Assembly (NCBI GenBank): GCA_021155985.1
Contig: JAJNBA010000047.1
Location: 1-32,635, forward strand
Source: Actinomycetes bacterium
Lineage (GTDB): Bacteria; Actinomycetota; UBA4738; HRBIN12
Direction: 5' to 3'
Length of the DNA: 32,635 bases
How positions within the stretch are numbered: position 1 is the first letter of the stretch; every line of letters begins with the position of its first letter. The notes under the pieces are model-generated. The model was not told the DNA's origin. It did not search any database and saw only the letters and a list, made by a program, of their open reading frames with translations. Positions 5,297-11,350 of the stretch are shown in pieces. The position numbers and the translations under genes were made by a program.

Positions 5297-6295
5297 ATGA
5301 CGGGCGACCGGCCAGATGACCGACAGGACGCCGGATCGCGCGCCCTCGCACGCGACCGTTTCTGGGTCCGCTCCCACGACCAGGCACCCGTGCTGCGTCG
5401 GCCGGCCGTCTACCTGCTCGCCGCCGCCACCGTCGCGGTGCTCGGGCTCAACTGGCCGATCATGTCCGCGGGCGTGGACCTCATCCCTCCCCTGTGGCTC
5501 GCCGCGTTCCGGATGGGAGGCGCGGCCATCGTCGTCGCTGCCGGGATGGCGACGCGAGGCGTGCCGCGCCCGCGCCCCGCGGATCGACCCATCCTGTGGA
5601 GCGTCGGCCTCGCGCGCCTCGCGCTCGTGACGGCGCTCGTGTTCAGCGCCCTCGAGTTCGTCCCCCCCGGGCGGTCGTCGATCCTCGTCTACACCGCGAG
5701 CCTCTGGACGGTCCCGCTGGCGGTCGTGTTCCTCCATGAACGACTGACGTCGCTCCGCGTCGCCGGTCTCGTGCTCGGCTCTGCCGGCGTCGTCTTGTTG
5801 ATCGAGCCGTGGACGCTCGATTGGAGCGACGACGATCTCCTGGTCGGTCTCGGCATGCTCGTGGTCGCGGCGATCGCGAACGCCTCGACCACCGTGCACA
5901 TCCGGGCCCACCGATGGGCGGGGACGCCGTTCGAGCTGATGCCGTGGCAGTTCGCGGTGGCTGCTGTCCCGATCCTCGTCCTCGCCGCGGCCCTCGAGGG
6001 CGTGCCTCACATCCGATGGACCGCGGCCACCGTGGGTGTCGTCGCGTATCAGATCGTCCTGGGGTCCGCCTTCGGGTTCTGGGGCCTCCTCACGATCAGC
6101 CGCAGCCTCCCCGCGATCACCACGAACCTCACGCTGATGGCGGTCCCGGTGGTCGGCCTGCTCTCGTCGAACGTGATCGCGAACGAACCGCTGACACTCG
6201 CCGTCTCGGTCAGCCTCGCCCTCGTGCTCGCCGGAGTGGGCCTCGGCCTGTACTCCGATCGGAGGAGGAGCGACCCGCTCCCGTCGGTGCCCTAG
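5297..6295 (+). CDS. EamA/DMT-family membrane transporter
   Basis: A 332-aa multi-pass membrane protein with two EamA repeats. Ten hydrophobic segments start near residue 38; a conserved TASLWTVPLAVVFLHERL segment ends the first repeat, and the second repeat carries TLMAVPVVGLLSS. The start is uncertain: ATG 5297 has no good ribosome-binding site and gives a 30-residue charged N-terminus, while GTG 5390 would begin right before the first helix. It follows the M24 hydrolase by 43 bases and is likely co-expressed, perhaps moving that enzyme's substrate or product. It belongs to the same superfamily as the gene at 1211, but the two are clearly different in sequence. It converges with the peroxiredoxin gene, overlapping its stop by four bases. 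Confidence 0.85.
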   Translation: MTGDRPDDRQDAGSRALARDRFWVRSHDQAPVLRRPAVYLLAAATVAVLGLNWPIMSAGVDLIPPLWLAAFRMGGAAIVVAAGMATRGVPRPRPADRPILWSVGLARLALVTALVFSALEFVPPGRSSILVYTASLWTVPLAVVFLHERLTSLRVAGLVLGSAGVVLLIEPWTLDWSDDDLLVGLGMLVVAAIANASTTVHIRAHRWAGTPFELMPWQFAVAAVPILVLAAALEGVPHIRWTAATVGVVAYQIVLGSAFGFWGLLTISRSLPAITTNLTLMAVPVVGLLSSNVIANEPLTLAVSVSLALVLAGVGLGLYSDRRRSDPLPSVP

Positions 6296-6792
6296 TCTCC
6301 CGTCGGACGTTCCAGTGCCGCGAAGGCATCCAGCGCGTCCTCGATCGCGGGTTCCTGGAGCGCGTCATCCGTCACCCAGCGATGCCGGATGATTCCGCCG
6401 CCATCGATCACGAACAGGGAGCGCTTCGCGAGGCCGTCGTGCTCCTTCCAGACCTCGTACCGTACCCCGTAGGCCGCGCAGGTCTCCCGGCCCCAGTCGG
6501 AGAGCAGCGGGAACGGGACTCCGAGGTGCTTGGCGAACGCCATCTGCGAGAAGGTCGCGGTGACCGCGATCGCGGCGATCCTGCCGCCCATCGCCTCGAT
6601 CCGAGGCGCCATCTCCCCCAACTGGGAGAGCTCGTGACTTCAGACGGAGCCGAAGTCGAAGACGTAGAACGCGAGCAGCAGCGGCCGGTGCCCCTCCAGG
6701 AGATCGTCCAGCGACACCTTCTCCTCGAACGTCTTCCGGAGCCGGAACGGTGGCGCCGGATCGCCGACGCCGGGCCCGATCTCCTCAGTCAT
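6292..6792 (-). CDS. Peroxiredoxin (AhpC/TSA fold) with in-frame UGA at the catalytic position, probable selenoprotein
   Basis: Read through the UGA at codon 51, this is a 166-aa thioredoxin-fold peroxiredoxin. The N-terminal part (PGVGDPAPPFRLRKTF) and LLLAFYVFDFGSV precede the UGA; SHELSQLGEM and the rest of the fold follow in the same frame. In this family the segment is normally V-C-(T/S)-x-E-L, so the UGA replaces exactly the peroxidatic cysteine. Arg in AKRSLFVID and a Cys at residue 105 remain. The role would be reduction of peroxides by a selenol. ATG 6792 overlaps the stop of the cyclase gene by eight bases, supporting translation from there. A hairpin fitting bacterial SECIS rules follows (6602-6634). 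Standard gene calling would report only a 109-aa fragment from TTG 6621. The alternative is a nonsense pseudogene, less likely because the change falls on the one residue where Cys/Sec exchange is common. Confidence 0.82.
6602..6634 (-). promoter_or_regulatory. Candidate bacterial SECIS hairpin
   Basis: On the minus strand a perfect six-pair stem UCUCCC/GGGAGA (6629-6624 with 6617-6612) closes the six-base loop AGUUGG. A lower four-pair stem CGAG/CUCG (6634-6631 with 6605-6602) is separated by an asymmetric internal loop. The apical loop begins 16 bases after the UGA and has G at its second position, as published bacterial SECIS rules require (16-37 bases; a G among the first two loop bases). 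Confidence 0.65.
6640..6642 (-). other. In-frame UGA, probable selenocysteine codon 51
   Basis: Minus-strand TGA in the same frame as the peroxiredoxin on both sides. Codons before it encode FDFGSV and codons after encode SHELSQLGE, matching the active-site loop of peroxiredoxins around the peroxidatic cysteine. Confidence 0.8.
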
Positions 6793-7477
6793 CGAGCAAC
6801 GCCACCGCGCGGGTCGGCCCGCCGTGCGCGCCCTTCAGCTTCAGCGGGAGGCCGATGAACGTGAACCGCCGCCCCGCGACCTGATCGAGGTTCGTGAGGT
6901 TCTCGTAGTGGGTGATGTGGTGCTCGCGCCCCATCATGTGGATCGGGTAGATCCGGCTCGACGGATTGTCCGGGGTACAGGTGTCGATCCCGAAGGACTT
7001 GACCCCACGCTGCACGATCCAGTCGCCCACGTCGGCGCCGAGCCCCGGGAACTCCGTCAGGTACTCGGGCGTGCCGCCGTACTTCGTGGCCGTTCCCGTG
7101 TAGAAGAGGACGATGTCGCCGGGGCGCACATCCTGCCGTGCGTCCGCCAGGCCCTGCTCCACCCGCGAGACCGGGATGTCCGTCCGTGGCTCGGCGCCGG
7201 TCACATCGATGCAGATGGCCTCGCCGGTGAACAGCTCGAGCGGCATCTCGTCGATCGTCTGCGCCGAGGGATCGGGATCGAGGTGGCTGAACGAGTCCAC
7301 GTGGGTGGGCCCGTTGTCGTTCAGGAGGAAGCCCTTGGTCTGGAAGCTGAAGCCGCTGTCGAACCGTGGAGCGGTTTCGGCGTGCGTCGCATGGTCGAAC
7401 AGGACGGTCTTGAGGTGGCCCGGGTACACCATCATCCCGGTGTAGATCTCCTGCGACAGGTCGACGATCCTCGGCAT
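6785..7477 (-). CDS. Cyclase-family (kynurenine formamidase-like) metal-dependent hydrolase
   Basis: A 230-aa cytoplasmic enzyme of the family that includes KynB and isatin hydrolase. It opens with the family start IVDLSQEIYTGMMVYPGH. The metal-binding loop reads NDNGPTHVDSFSHLD, a variant of the canonical H-x-G-T-H-x-D with Asn at the first ligand position; GREHHITHYENLTNL near residue 195 supplies further His residues. Such enzymes hydrolyse amide or lactam bonds such as N-formylkynurenine or isatin; the exact substrate is unknown. The start at 7477 follows AAAGGGG, eleven bases after the SDR stop. The 3' end overlaps the selenoprotein start. It is the third gene of the leftward operon. Confidence 0.88.
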   Translation of the reverse strand: MPRIVDLSQEIYTGMMVYPGHLKTVLFDHATHAETAPRFDSGFSFQTKGFLLNDNGPTHVDSFSHLDPDPSAQTIDEMPLELFTGEAICIDVTGAEPRTDIPVSRVEQGLADARQDVRPGDIVLFYTGTATKYGGTPEYLTEFPGLGADVGDWIVQRGVKSFGIDTCTPDNPSSRIYPIHMMGREHHITHYENLTNLDQVAGRRFTFIGLPLKLKGAHGGPTRAVALLDD

Positions 7478-7488
7478 ACGCACCCCTT

Positions 7489-8268
7489 TCAGTACATCAC
7501 CATGCCGCCGCTCACGTTCAGGTCTGCCCCGGTCACGGCTGTGAGCTCGCCGAGCGTGAGCGCGACGACGGCGTCGGCGACCTCGCGGGCCTCGATCAGC
7601 CTCCCGACCGGGATGTCGGCGACCATCTCCGCTCGCGCATCCTCCGCCGAGATGCCGCGGCCCTCCGCCTGCGCCCGGAACGCCCATGCCATCCGCTCCC
7701 CCTCCACCGGTCCGGGCGACACGAGGTTCACCCGGACACCGGAGGGAGCGGTCTCGAGCGCGAGCGTGCGGACGAGCCCCACGAGGGCGAGCTTGCTGGC
7801 CGCGTACGGGGTGCGCCCCCACAAGGGGCGCTTGCCCGTCATCGATCCGATCACCACGATCGAACCACCGCCACGCTCGAGCATCGCGGGCAGGAACGCT
7901 CGTGCGCAGAGGAACACGCCGGTCACGTTCACCGCGAACGTCTCCTCCCACGCCTGACGATCGAGTTCCCACAGCGGCCCGCTGGGACCGCCCACGCCGC
8001 TGTTCGCCACGAGCGCGTCGGCGGCGCCGAACCGTTCCGCCGCTTCAGCGGCGAGCGCCGCGACGTCCTCCTCCGAGGTCACGTCGGTGCGGACGCACGC
8101 GGTGGCGGCGCCGAGCGCCGCGGCGGCCTCTGCGGTGGCGTCGAGGGTCACCGGATCGCGCCCTGCCAACACGACGTCCGCGCCGGCGGACGCCAATCCG
8201 ATCGCGATCTCTCGTCCGATCCCGCGACCGGCCCCGGTGACCACGGTCACCGGTCGTCGACCGCTCAT
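7489..8268 (-). CDS. Short-chain dehydrogenase/reductase
   Basis: A 259-aa classical SDR. The cofactor loop TGAGRGIG (11-18), NSGVGG at 89-94 (the NAG position), Asn114, Ser142, Tyr155 and Lys159 (YAASK) complete the catalytic tetrad. It probably oxidises a secondary alcohol with NAD(P). Its ATG overlaps the stop of the HisD-like gene in an ATGA arrangement, indicating translational coupling. Next to an HpsN-like dehydrogenase and a zinc alcohol dehydrogenase it sits where HpsO is found in dihydroxypropanesulfonate degradation clusters; that link is inference from context, since SDR sequences do not reveal the substrate. Confidence 0.92.
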   Translation of the reverse strand: MSGRRPVTVVTGAGRGIGREIAIGLASAGADVVLAGRDPVTLDATAEAAAALGAATACVRTDVTSEEDVAALAAEAAERFGAADALVANSGVGGPSGPLWELDRQAWEETFAVNVTGVFLCARAFLPAMLERGGGSIVVIGSMTGKRPLWGRTPYAASKLALVGLVRTLALETAPSGVRVNLVSPGPVEGERMAWAFRAQAEGRGISAEDARAEMVADIPVGRLIEAREVADAVVALTLGELTAVTGADLNVSGGMVMY

Positions 8269-9590
8269 CCCTCGTCCTCGAGGGGATGCGTCGGGGGGAT
8301 CGCGGGGAGGGCGTCCGGATACCGAGCCGGGTCGACCCGGAGCCTCGCGGTGAGCGCGTGGCCGAACATCAGCTCGGCGTCGGCGATCGCCGCGGTGGAC
8401 GCGGCGACACGTGCCGACCCCTCGGCCGTGACCCGTTGATACGTGACGGCCTTCAGGAACTTCCCGACCCACAATCCGCCCGTGTACCGAGCCGCCCCGC
8501 GAGTGGGGAGCACATGGTTCGTCCCGATCGCCTTGTCGGAGTACGCCACCGTCGCATGGGTCCCGAGGAAGAGCGTGCCGTAGGAGCTCATCCGCTTCAG
8601 GTACCAGTCGGGATCCTCCGTCTGGATCTCGAGGTGCTCCGGCGCGATGTCGTCGGCGACCGCGGCTGCCTCCTCCTCGTCCTCGCACACGATGATCGCC
8701 CCGTGATCGCGCCACGCGGTACCGGCGACCTCCTTCGTGGGCCACTCGCCTTCGAGCCATGCGTCGACCGCGTCGCTCACGGCGCGAGCGAGATCCTCCG
8801 AAGTGGTCACCAGGGTGGCGGGCGACGTCGGACCGTGCTCGGCCTGTCCGAGCAGATCCGCGGCGACGATCGCCGGGTCGGCGGAGTCGTCCGCCAGCAC
8901 CATCACCTCGGTCGGCCCCGCCAGCAGGTCGATCCCCACGGTGCCGAACAGCTGACGCTTGGCCTCCGCGACGTAGGCGTTCCCGGCCCCGACCAGCATG
9001 TCCACGGGCTCGAGGTCTTCGATGCCGAACGCCATCGCAGCGAACGCCTGGACCCCGCCGATACAGAGGATCTCGTCGGCTCCCGACGTCACCATCGCGT
9101 AGAGCTGGGGCGGATGCATCCCGGCCGGCCCGCGCGGCGGCGCGCACGCCACCACGCGCGGCACCTCCGCCACCTTGGGCACGAGCACGGTCATGATCGC
9201 GGAAGCGATCAGCGGGTAGAGGCCGCCCGGCGAGTACGCGCCGACGGCGCCTACCGGAAGGAACCGCTGTCCGAGCGTGACGCCGGGCAGGGTCTCCCAC
9301 TCCTCGTCGACCAGGGTCGATCGCTGCATCTCCGCGAACCCACGGATCTGCGCCTGCGCGAACGCGATGTGCTCGCGAAGTTCGTCGCTGATCACATCGG
9401 CGGCATCGCGGAGGGCGTCGTCGGCGACGCGGAACGACGGTGGGCTCCAGCCGTCGAACCGGTCGGAGTAGCGGCGCACCGCCGCCTCGCCGTCGCGCTC
9501 CACGGCTCCGAGGATCTCGCTGACGGTCGCGCGGATCTCGGACCACGTCTCCTCGGCGACCCCGGTCCGCTCCTTGAGGTATCGAGCCAT
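8265..9590 (-). CDS. Histidinol dehydrogenase family protein, HpsN-like (sulfopropanediol 3-dehydrogenase type)
   Basis: A 441-aa NAD-dependent four-electron alcohol dehydrogenase of the HisD family. The zinc ligands Gln249 and His252 (GQAEHG), Asp352 (YSDKAIG) and His411 (FGHALTA) and the catalytic Glu318-His319 pair (APEHLE) are all present. The stretch TNHVLPTRGAARYTGGLWVG resembles catabolic relatives such as HpsN more than biosynthetic HisD, and there are no histidine-biosynthesis neighbours. HpsN oxidises 2,3-dihydroxypropane-1-sulfonate to sulfolactate; another primary alcohol is possible here. ATG 9590 follows GGAGGG. It is the first gene of the leftward operon, with a perfect TATAAT in the promoter, and divergent from the dehydrogenase-regulator fusion. 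Confidence 0.88.
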   Translation of the reverse strand: MARYLKERTGVAEETWSEIRATVSEILGAVERDGEAAVRRYSDRFDGWSPPSFRVADDALRDAADVISDELREHIAFAQAQIRGFAEMQRSTLVDEEWETLPGVTLGQRFLPVGAVGAYSPGGLYPLIASAIMTVLVPKVAEVPRVVACAPPRGPAGMHPPQLYAMVTSGADEILCIGGVQAFAAMAFGIEDLEPVDMLVGAGNAYVAEAKRQLFGTVGIDLLAGPTEVMVLADDSADPAIVAADLLGQAEHGPTSPATLVTTSEDLARAVSDAVDAWLEGEWPTKEVAGTAWRDHGAIIVCEDEEEAAAVADDIAPEHLEIQTEDPDWYLKRMSSYGTLFLGTHATVAYSDKAIGTNHVLPTRGAARYTGGLWVGKFLKAVTYQRVTAEGSARVAASTAAIADAELMFGHALTARLRVDPARYPDALPAIPPTHPLEDEG

Positions 9591-9632
9591 CGCACCCTCC
9601 TCTCGGATCGGCTCGGTGCCCGACAGTTCGTA

Positions 9633-9645
9633 TATTATATCTAGG
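9633..9645. promoter_or_regulatory. AT-rich shared motif with -10 element in divergent promoter
   Basis: TATTATATCTAGG matches about 10 of 13 positions of the motif before the binding proteins. On the minus strand it contains a perfect TATAAT (9634-9639), a -10 box for the HisD-like operon with a leader of about 37 bases. The 95-base region also drives the rightward fusion gene at 9686, so a repressor here would control both sides. Confidence 0.5.
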
Positions 9646-9685
9646 CAACGCGCCGGGGCCACCCGGCTCGATCGCGGAGGAGCCC

Positions 9686-11350
9686 ATGCGCGCGATGGCG
9701 GTCGTGGACTACGGGAAGCCGTTGGAGCTCATGGACCTGCCCGAGCCCGAGCTCCGGCCGGGATTCGCGTTGCTGGAGGTCATCTCCTGCGGCGTCTGCT
9801 TCAGCGACGTCAAGACCTCCCGCGGTCGGATGCCGTTCAGCGAGGACCTCCGGCTCCCGCACATCCCCGGCCACGAGATCTACGGTCGGGTGATCGCCTC
9901 CGATCCCGAGGGAGCGGTGGCGGAAGGCACCCGCGCCGTCGTCTACCACTACTGGCCGTGCGGGGCCTGCTCCGCGTGTCGCCGTGGCGACGAGACGCTC
10001 TGCCGCAACATGGTCGGCTGGGCGGGTTTCACCCATCCCGGCGGCTTCACCGAACGGATGGCGGTCCCGGTGGGTCGGCTGGTGCCGATCCCGGCGTCGA
10101 TCGATCCGATCCACGCTGCGCCGATGTCGTGCGCGCTGGGGACGGCCTATCGCTCCGTCGTCACGCGAGGTGGCGTGGGCGCCGGGATGACGGCCGCGAT
10201 CGTCGGGCTGGGCGGTGTCGGGATCCACGCAGCGCAGATGGGCCGAGCCGCGGGCGCCCGCACGGCCGGGTTCGACGTCCACGAGCCCACCCTCGCGGCG
10301 GCTCGAGACCTCGAGCTCCAGGTCTGGCGGGCCGACGACGACGCGGCGATCGACGCCGTGATCGGCGGCACAAACGATGAAGGGGTCGACGTGGTCGTCG
10401 ACACGGTGGGACACGACGACACCCTCGACCTCGCCCGACGGCTGGTTCGTCCGGGCGGGCGGGTCGTCGTCGTCGGCTACACGCCCACGTCCGCGCTCTC
10501 CGTTCCGACCCCGAGGCTCGTCCTGGACGAGGTGGACTACGTGGGGTCGCGCTACGCGCACCGCGACGACCTCGCGAAGGCCGTCGCGCTCGTGGCGCGC
10601 GGCCTCGTATCGACCGTGGTGGGGATGATCCGACCCCTCGAGGGGGTGAAAGCCGTCCGATATCGTGAGCGCCGGCTGATGGCCTACCGACAGGACGCGC
10701 TCGGGCGGGACACCACCGCGAAGGTCGTCGCGGAGCGGCTCCGCGACGAGATCCAGCACGGCACGTTGGCCCCCGGAACCAGGCTGCGGCAGAACGACGT
10801 CGCGGAGCGGTTCGGCGTGAGCACGACACCCGTCCGTGAGGCGTTCGCGCAGCTGCAGGCGGAGGGCCTGGTCAGGATCGACCCGCACCGCGGAGCGGTG
10901 GTCTTCCACCCGAGCGTGGACGACGTGCTCGAGTTCTACGAGATCCGCGAGGCACTGGAGTCCGTCGCGGTCGCACACGCGATCCCGAACCTGCGCAAGG
11001 ACGTCGCTCGCGACCTCGGCGCGCTGATCGAGCGGATGCGTCGGACGGAGGACGCCAGGAAGTGGCTCAAACTGAACGACCAGTTCCATCTGCGTCTCTA
11101 CGAAGGTGCCGCGCGGCCTCGCCTCTCGGGCCTGATCGACAGCCTGCGCGACGCCTCCGCCCCGTACATCCACATGTTCGTGGCCTCGAGGCCGCCCTCG
11201 GAGCGGGCGAACGAACAGCACCAGGAGATCCTGGATGCGTGCGTCCGCGGCGATGCGGCGGGCGCGAAGCGGGCCATCCGCGAACACCTGCGAAGCGCCG
11301 CCCGCGACCTCGCCGCGTTCCTCGCCGCCCAGGAAAGCAGCACCCCCTAG
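9686..11350 (+). CDS. Zinc-dependent alcohol dehydrogenase fused in frame to a GntR/FCD regulator
   Basis: One 554-aa reading frame with two proteins' worth of sequence. Residues 1-331 are a medium-chain dehydrogenase: catalytic zinc ligands Cys38, His63-Glu64 and Cys149, structural-zinc cysteines 92, 95, 98 and 106, and Rossmann loop GLGGVG (174-179). The usual last 20-25 residues of the family are missing after RPLEGVKAV. Residues 332-554 are a full GntR regulator: winged helix with DVAERFGVSTTPVREAF, then an FCD domain with LNDQFHLRLY and EQHQEIL. ATG 10679 could be an internal start for the regulator alone, but it has no good ribosome-binding site. ATG 9686 follows GGAGGA. The join looks like a deletion that removed the dehydrogenase tail and the spacer. 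It is divergent from the HpsN-like operon, so the enzyme could play an HpsP-like role. A genuine bifunctional protein or a damaged pair are both possible. Confidence 0.85.
   Translation: MRAMAVVDYGKPLELMDLPEPELRPGFALLEVISCGVCFSDVKTSRGRMPFSEDLRLPHIPGHEIYGRVIASDPEGAVAEGTRAVVYHYWPCGACSACRRGDETLCRNMVGWAGFTHPGGFTERMAVPVGRLVPIPASIDPIHAAPMSCALGTAYRSVVTRGGVGAGMTAAIVGLGGVGIHAAQMGRAAGARTAGFDVHEPTLAAARDLELQVWRADDDAAIDAVIGGTNDEGVDVVVDTVGHDDTLDLARRLVRPGGRVVVVGYTPTSALSVPTPRLVLDEVDYVGSRYAHRDDLAKAVALVARGLVSTVVGMIRPLEGVKAVRYRERRLMAYRQDALGRDTTAKVVAERLRDEIQHGTLAPGTRLRQNDVAERFGVSTTPVREAFAQLQAEGLVRIDPHRGAVVFHPSVDDVLEFYEIREALESVAVAHAIPNLRKDVARDLGALIERMRRTEDARKWLKLNDQFHLRLYEGAARPRLSGLIDSLRDASAPYIHMFVASRPPSERANEQHQEILDACVRGDAAGAKRAIREHLRSAARDLAAFLAAQESSTP

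Follow-up and report, generated by a model that had tools for sequence, protein, structure and literature searches.

The locus described here raises two questions: is a stop codon in the middle of a peroxiredoxin-like gene a lesion or a selenocysteine (Sec) codon, and, if it is the latter, what does the encoded protein do? The gene lies in a stretch of 32,635 nucleotides from an actinomycete genome (contig JAJNBA010000047.1), called the window below. A preliminary description, made from the sequence alone, had proposed a Sec-containing peroxide reductase. The features that we discuss are listed in Table 1.

Table 1. Features of the selenoprotein locus and its neighbors in the window.
Feature	Position	Strand	Remarks
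EamA-family transporter, neighbor outside the operon	5297..6295	+	convergent; 4-nt overlap with selenoprotein stop
AhpC/TSA (peroxiredoxin)-fold selenoprotein gene (predicted), 166 aa including Sec51	6292..6792	-	frame, PF00578, homologue column, structure model
SECIS-like hairpin	6613..6630	-	7-bp stem CUCUCCC/GGGGGAG, loop AGUU 6623-6620, 16 nt past UGA
UGA codon 51, putative Sec codon	6640..6642	-	stop in 20/20 clade members (17 UGA, 3 UAG)
Codons V44 to G48	6649..6663	-	Val-xxx-Gly where peroxiredoxins have Pro-xxx-Thr/Ser
Cyclase-family hydrolase (PF04199; kynurenine-formamidase-like)	6785..7483	-	start GTG 7483 or ATG 7477; 8-nt overlap with selenoprotein start
Short-chain dehydrogenase (SDR), same operon as selenoprotein gene	7489..8268	-	start ATG 8268 proposed
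Histidinol-dehydrogenase family protein (described earlier as HpsN-like), first gene of the operon	8265..9662	-	general hisD domain model passed

Re-translation of the minus strand from the ATG at 6792 to the TAG at 6292 gave 166 residues with exactly one internal stop, the TGA at 6642-6640, as the preliminary description had read it. In the alignment this codon, number 51, occupies the peroxidatic position of the peroxiredoxin fold. The earlier statement that family-like sequence flanks the stop also holds, with the Pfam AhpC-TSA domain (PF00578, 1.1e-24, residues 9-137) running across it. Gene calling with translation table 11 returned only the predicted 109-aa fragment (6292-6621, from a TTG start); standard calling thus cuts the selenoprotein gene short. 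GC content by codon position is typical of coding sequence both ahead of the UGA (0.72/0.38/0.92) and past it (0.68/0.47/0.88). Comparison with the closest relative (75% identity across 154 columns) gave a dN much lower than dS, both before the UGA (0.074 against 0.40) and after it (0.172 against 0.55). These rates indicate that the part before the stop and the part after it are both under purifying selection.

To the window gene we could add 19 relatives with 51-75% identity: 16 from a scan of bacterial genomes (51-61% identity) and three from genome searches, one from the same family, one from the same phylum and one from the Geodermatophilaceae. The 20 members form a single clade in the tree (support 97). 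A stop occupies the codon-51 column in all of them, UGA in 17 and UAG in three (two Geodermatophilus genes and one family member), and none has Cys. The preliminary description had proposed looking for Cys or UGA in this column, and had named a lone recent nonsense change as one outcome that would speak against Sec; the stop is kept in every close homologue. Because the clade was seen only as the Sec form or its UAG equivalent, never with Cys, in the searched genomes, Sec is apparently required in it. More distant actinobacterial relatives include both Cys forms and other UGA forms. A plasmid search returned only matches below 60% identity, the best among the matches listed being near 37%. The same phylum also holds a separate peroxiredoxin-like family with the motif VFYRGDW-U-PYC, in which an in-frame UGA lies three residues ahead of a Cys (UxxC type; loci L128, L138, L140, L146 and L154 in genomes G363, G183, G388, G247 and G336); a relative of that family, L144, has Asp in the UGA column.

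The genome from which the window comes carries all four genes that bacterial selenoproteins require, as the preliminary description had asked to be verified. selB scores 304 bits (cut-off 242), selA adjoins it directly upstream, selD scores 380 bits, and the tRNA-Sec (selC) scores 70 bits, with the anticodon TCA according to ARAGORN. The same genome has a second selenoprotein gene, an fdhA-like formate dehydrogenase (L085, C77:97599-99467) in which UGA occupies the Sec site, SCNRT-U-HAPSVVGL. Across the clade, the codon at the Sec site is complementary to the anticodon of the tRNA-Sec in all 12 of the checked genomes where one was detected. The anticodon is TCA (UCA) in nine out of nine such genomes with UGA genes and CTA (CUA) in three out of three with UAG genes; the CTA tRNAs were identified by their Rfam tRNA-Sec match, and the label Pyl that ARAGORN gives them derives from the anticodon alone. 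For one UGA gene, in a metagenome-assembled genome that may be incomplete (G005), no tRNA-Sec scored over the cut-off. Besides a normal tRNA-Sec(TCA), another genome (G058) has a tRNA (L094:1501-1593) whose variable arm is long and whose anticodon is GCA (Cys), but which reaches 57 bits as tRNA-Sec.

A hairpin that satisfies the published rules for bacterial SECIS elements (PMC13188914) follows the UGA. Its folding energy is -10.6 kcal/mol alone, and -8.0 to -11.3 kcal/mol in eight other members checked. This stability is not unusual for this GC-rich sequence (z -0.51), so we dropped it as evidence and relied on covariation and codon choice. In 19 sequences, four of the seven pairs change on both sides; shuffles averaged 1.4 such pairs and only one in 500 reached four. 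Sliding the hairpin register lowers all measures, and the loop AGUU is invariant. The Leu codon in the loop (+7) is TTG in 16 of 16 cases versus 21 of the 261 Leu codons elsewhere in the same genes, and the Ser codon is TCC in 15 of 15 versus 34 of 156 elsewhere. The sequences behind these codon and pair counts share ancestry, so the counts are supportive rather than independent.

We weighed two readings in which codon 51 is not a Sec codon. The first takes the gene for that of a Cys peroxiredoxin, the UGA having arisen by nonsense mutation (a pseudogene) or by an error in sequencing. This would explain the in-frame stop itself, and nothing else; the persistence of the stop in all 20 members, the selection past it and the presence of the Sec machinery bring this reading close to negligible, and as far as sequence allows it is refuted. 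It is also very improbable that the UGA is read as some other residue, by near-cognate suppression or general reassignment. The inserted residue is not visible from the sequence alone, but whether a gene has UGA or UAG, the codon agrees with the tRNA-Sec anticodon of its own genome, and general reassignment does not apply because UGA also terminates other genes of the same genome, for instance the cyclase at 6785. The selenoprotein reading is strongly supported by this comparative evidence, and codon 51 would direct selenium insertion.

Sec in a peroxiredoxin fold is in itself a known phenomenon (PMC13188914); what is unusual in this clade is the active site. The motif P-x3-[TS]-x2-C has been described as invariant in peroxiredoxins (PMC5719442). 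All 20 members instead have V-x3-G-x2-U, and because the defining motif is lacking we file the protein as an AhpC/TSA-fold selenoprotein. In 70 Cys relatives, Thr/Ser is kept in every sequence and Pro in 69, whereas the other Sec relatives keep Thr/Ser and have mostly lost Pro. The Pro at -7 is thus present in 69 of 70 Cys rows versus 3 of 31 Sec/UAG rows. Although Sec and the missing Pro coincide in these raw counts, Sec changes only about twice on the tree, leaving at most two independent pairs, and we therefore make no causal claim. The catalytic Arg (R124) is invariant in the clade, and no second Cys is conserved throughout it.

The AlphaFold model of the window protein (pLDDT 86) has an AhpC/TSA domain and fold, with SsBcp4 (3hjp; Foldseek 2.6e-13) as the closest structure and Mycobacterium tuberculosis AhpE (1xvw) close behind (TM 0.81-0.82). 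The Sulfolobus Bcp4/PrxQ proteins (3hjp, 2ywn, 4g2e) are the closest solved relatives both by profile (1e-33) and by fold; where 2ywn reads FYPAAFTQVC, the window protein reads FYVFDFGSVU. The 1-Cys enzyme AhpE shares the fold (TM 0.81, 33% identity), the conserved Arg and the lack of a conserved resolving Cys, but it has Cys where the window protein has Sec, together with Val/Gly at the motif Pro/Thr positions. PrxU of Eubacterium acidaminophilum (NF040737) likewise combines Sec at the peroxidatic position with an AhpC/TSA fold, but its motif is TxxU (PMC13188914) rather than GxxU, and the window protein scores 45.9 bits against the PrxU cut-off of 270. UAG-Sec decoding in the Geodermatophilaceae has been published, including an AhpC gene of Blastococcus saxobsidens DD2 (PMC5330540). 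This gene resembles our Geodermatophilus members in being AhpC-type, with a UAG Sec site, a bSECIS and a tRNA-Sec(CUA); it is the one such gene reported there, with UAG as opposed to the UGA of the window gene.

The operon runs from the histidinol-dehydrogenase-family gene through the SDR and cyclase genes to the selenoprotein gene; two of the junctions are overlaps, of 4 and 8 nt, and one is a short gap. The genes run straight into the selenoprotein gene, as the preliminary description had it. In one other genome (G105), the same operon set, 74-90% identical, adjoins the selenoprotein gene. Across 18 loci, a cyclase is a neighbor in five and an M24 hydrolase in seven; cyclases, SDRs, M24 hydrolases, GntR/FCD regulators and parts of SsuA/NMT1-type ABC transporters recur nearby in other genomes in varying sets. 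These neighborhoods suggest that the selenoprotein gene is linked to a catabolic pathway. A 554-aa frame in the window (9686-11350, plus strand) joins a zinc alcohol dehydrogenase and a GntR/FCD regulator, two parts that match as separate stretches in G105 (L080). At another locus (L081:3166-3603, genome G193), an HbpS-like gene (PF03928) begins right after the selenoprotein gene, and members of this cluster lie near the selenoprotein gene in four other loci.

With a probability of roughly 70%, we read the window protein as an AhpC/TSA-fold selenoprotein with Sec at UGA 51 that most likely acts as a 1-Sec hydroperoxide reductase. SelA would make Sec-tRNA-Sec and SelB would carry it, docking on the hairpin 16 nt downstream so that codon 51 is read as Sec. 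The selenolate, held by Arg124, would attack the peroxide, forming a selenenic acid that a low-molecular-weight thiol or thioredoxin-like protein may reduce back. Such an outside thiol is probably needed for resolution because the clade lacks a second conserved Cys. Mycothiol, the reductant of AhpE, was considered as a candidate, but the sole MshC match scores 227 bits, under the 485-bit cut-off, and is probably a cysteinyl-tRNA synthetase.

The replacement of Pro and Thr/Ser by Val and Gly across the 20 members may have changed the peroxidase chemistry. A non-peroxidase selenoprotein of the same fold, its substrate changed, for instance to a sulfur compound, a disulfide or another electrophile linked to the HDH-SDR-cyclase pathway, could account for the loss of both peroxide-orienting residues and for the recurrent catabolic neighbors. 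We nevertheless consider it rather unlikely: the protein has retained the catalytic Arg, the peroxiredoxin fold and the position of Sec, a selenolate is already ionized and may do without the Thr, and the neighbors differ between genomes. Peroxide is the substrate we infer and its reduction the likeliest function. Of the proposed Sec-containing peroxide reductase, then, the selenoprotein part stands on the conserved stop and the sel genes, and the peroxide reductase part is only probable, given the missing Pro and Thr/Ser.

This actinobacterial clade is known only in Sec form, with Val and Gly in place of an otherwise invariant Pro and Thr/Ser, and tentatively it may represent a new-substrate selenoenzyme tied to a hydrolase/dehydrogenase catabolic cluster. 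It also offers a clean case of a single Sec site whose codon changes between UGA and UAG together with the tRNA-Sec anticodon, and a natural experiment on whether a selenolate frees a peroxiredoxin from the thiol-activating, peroxide-placing Pro and Thr.
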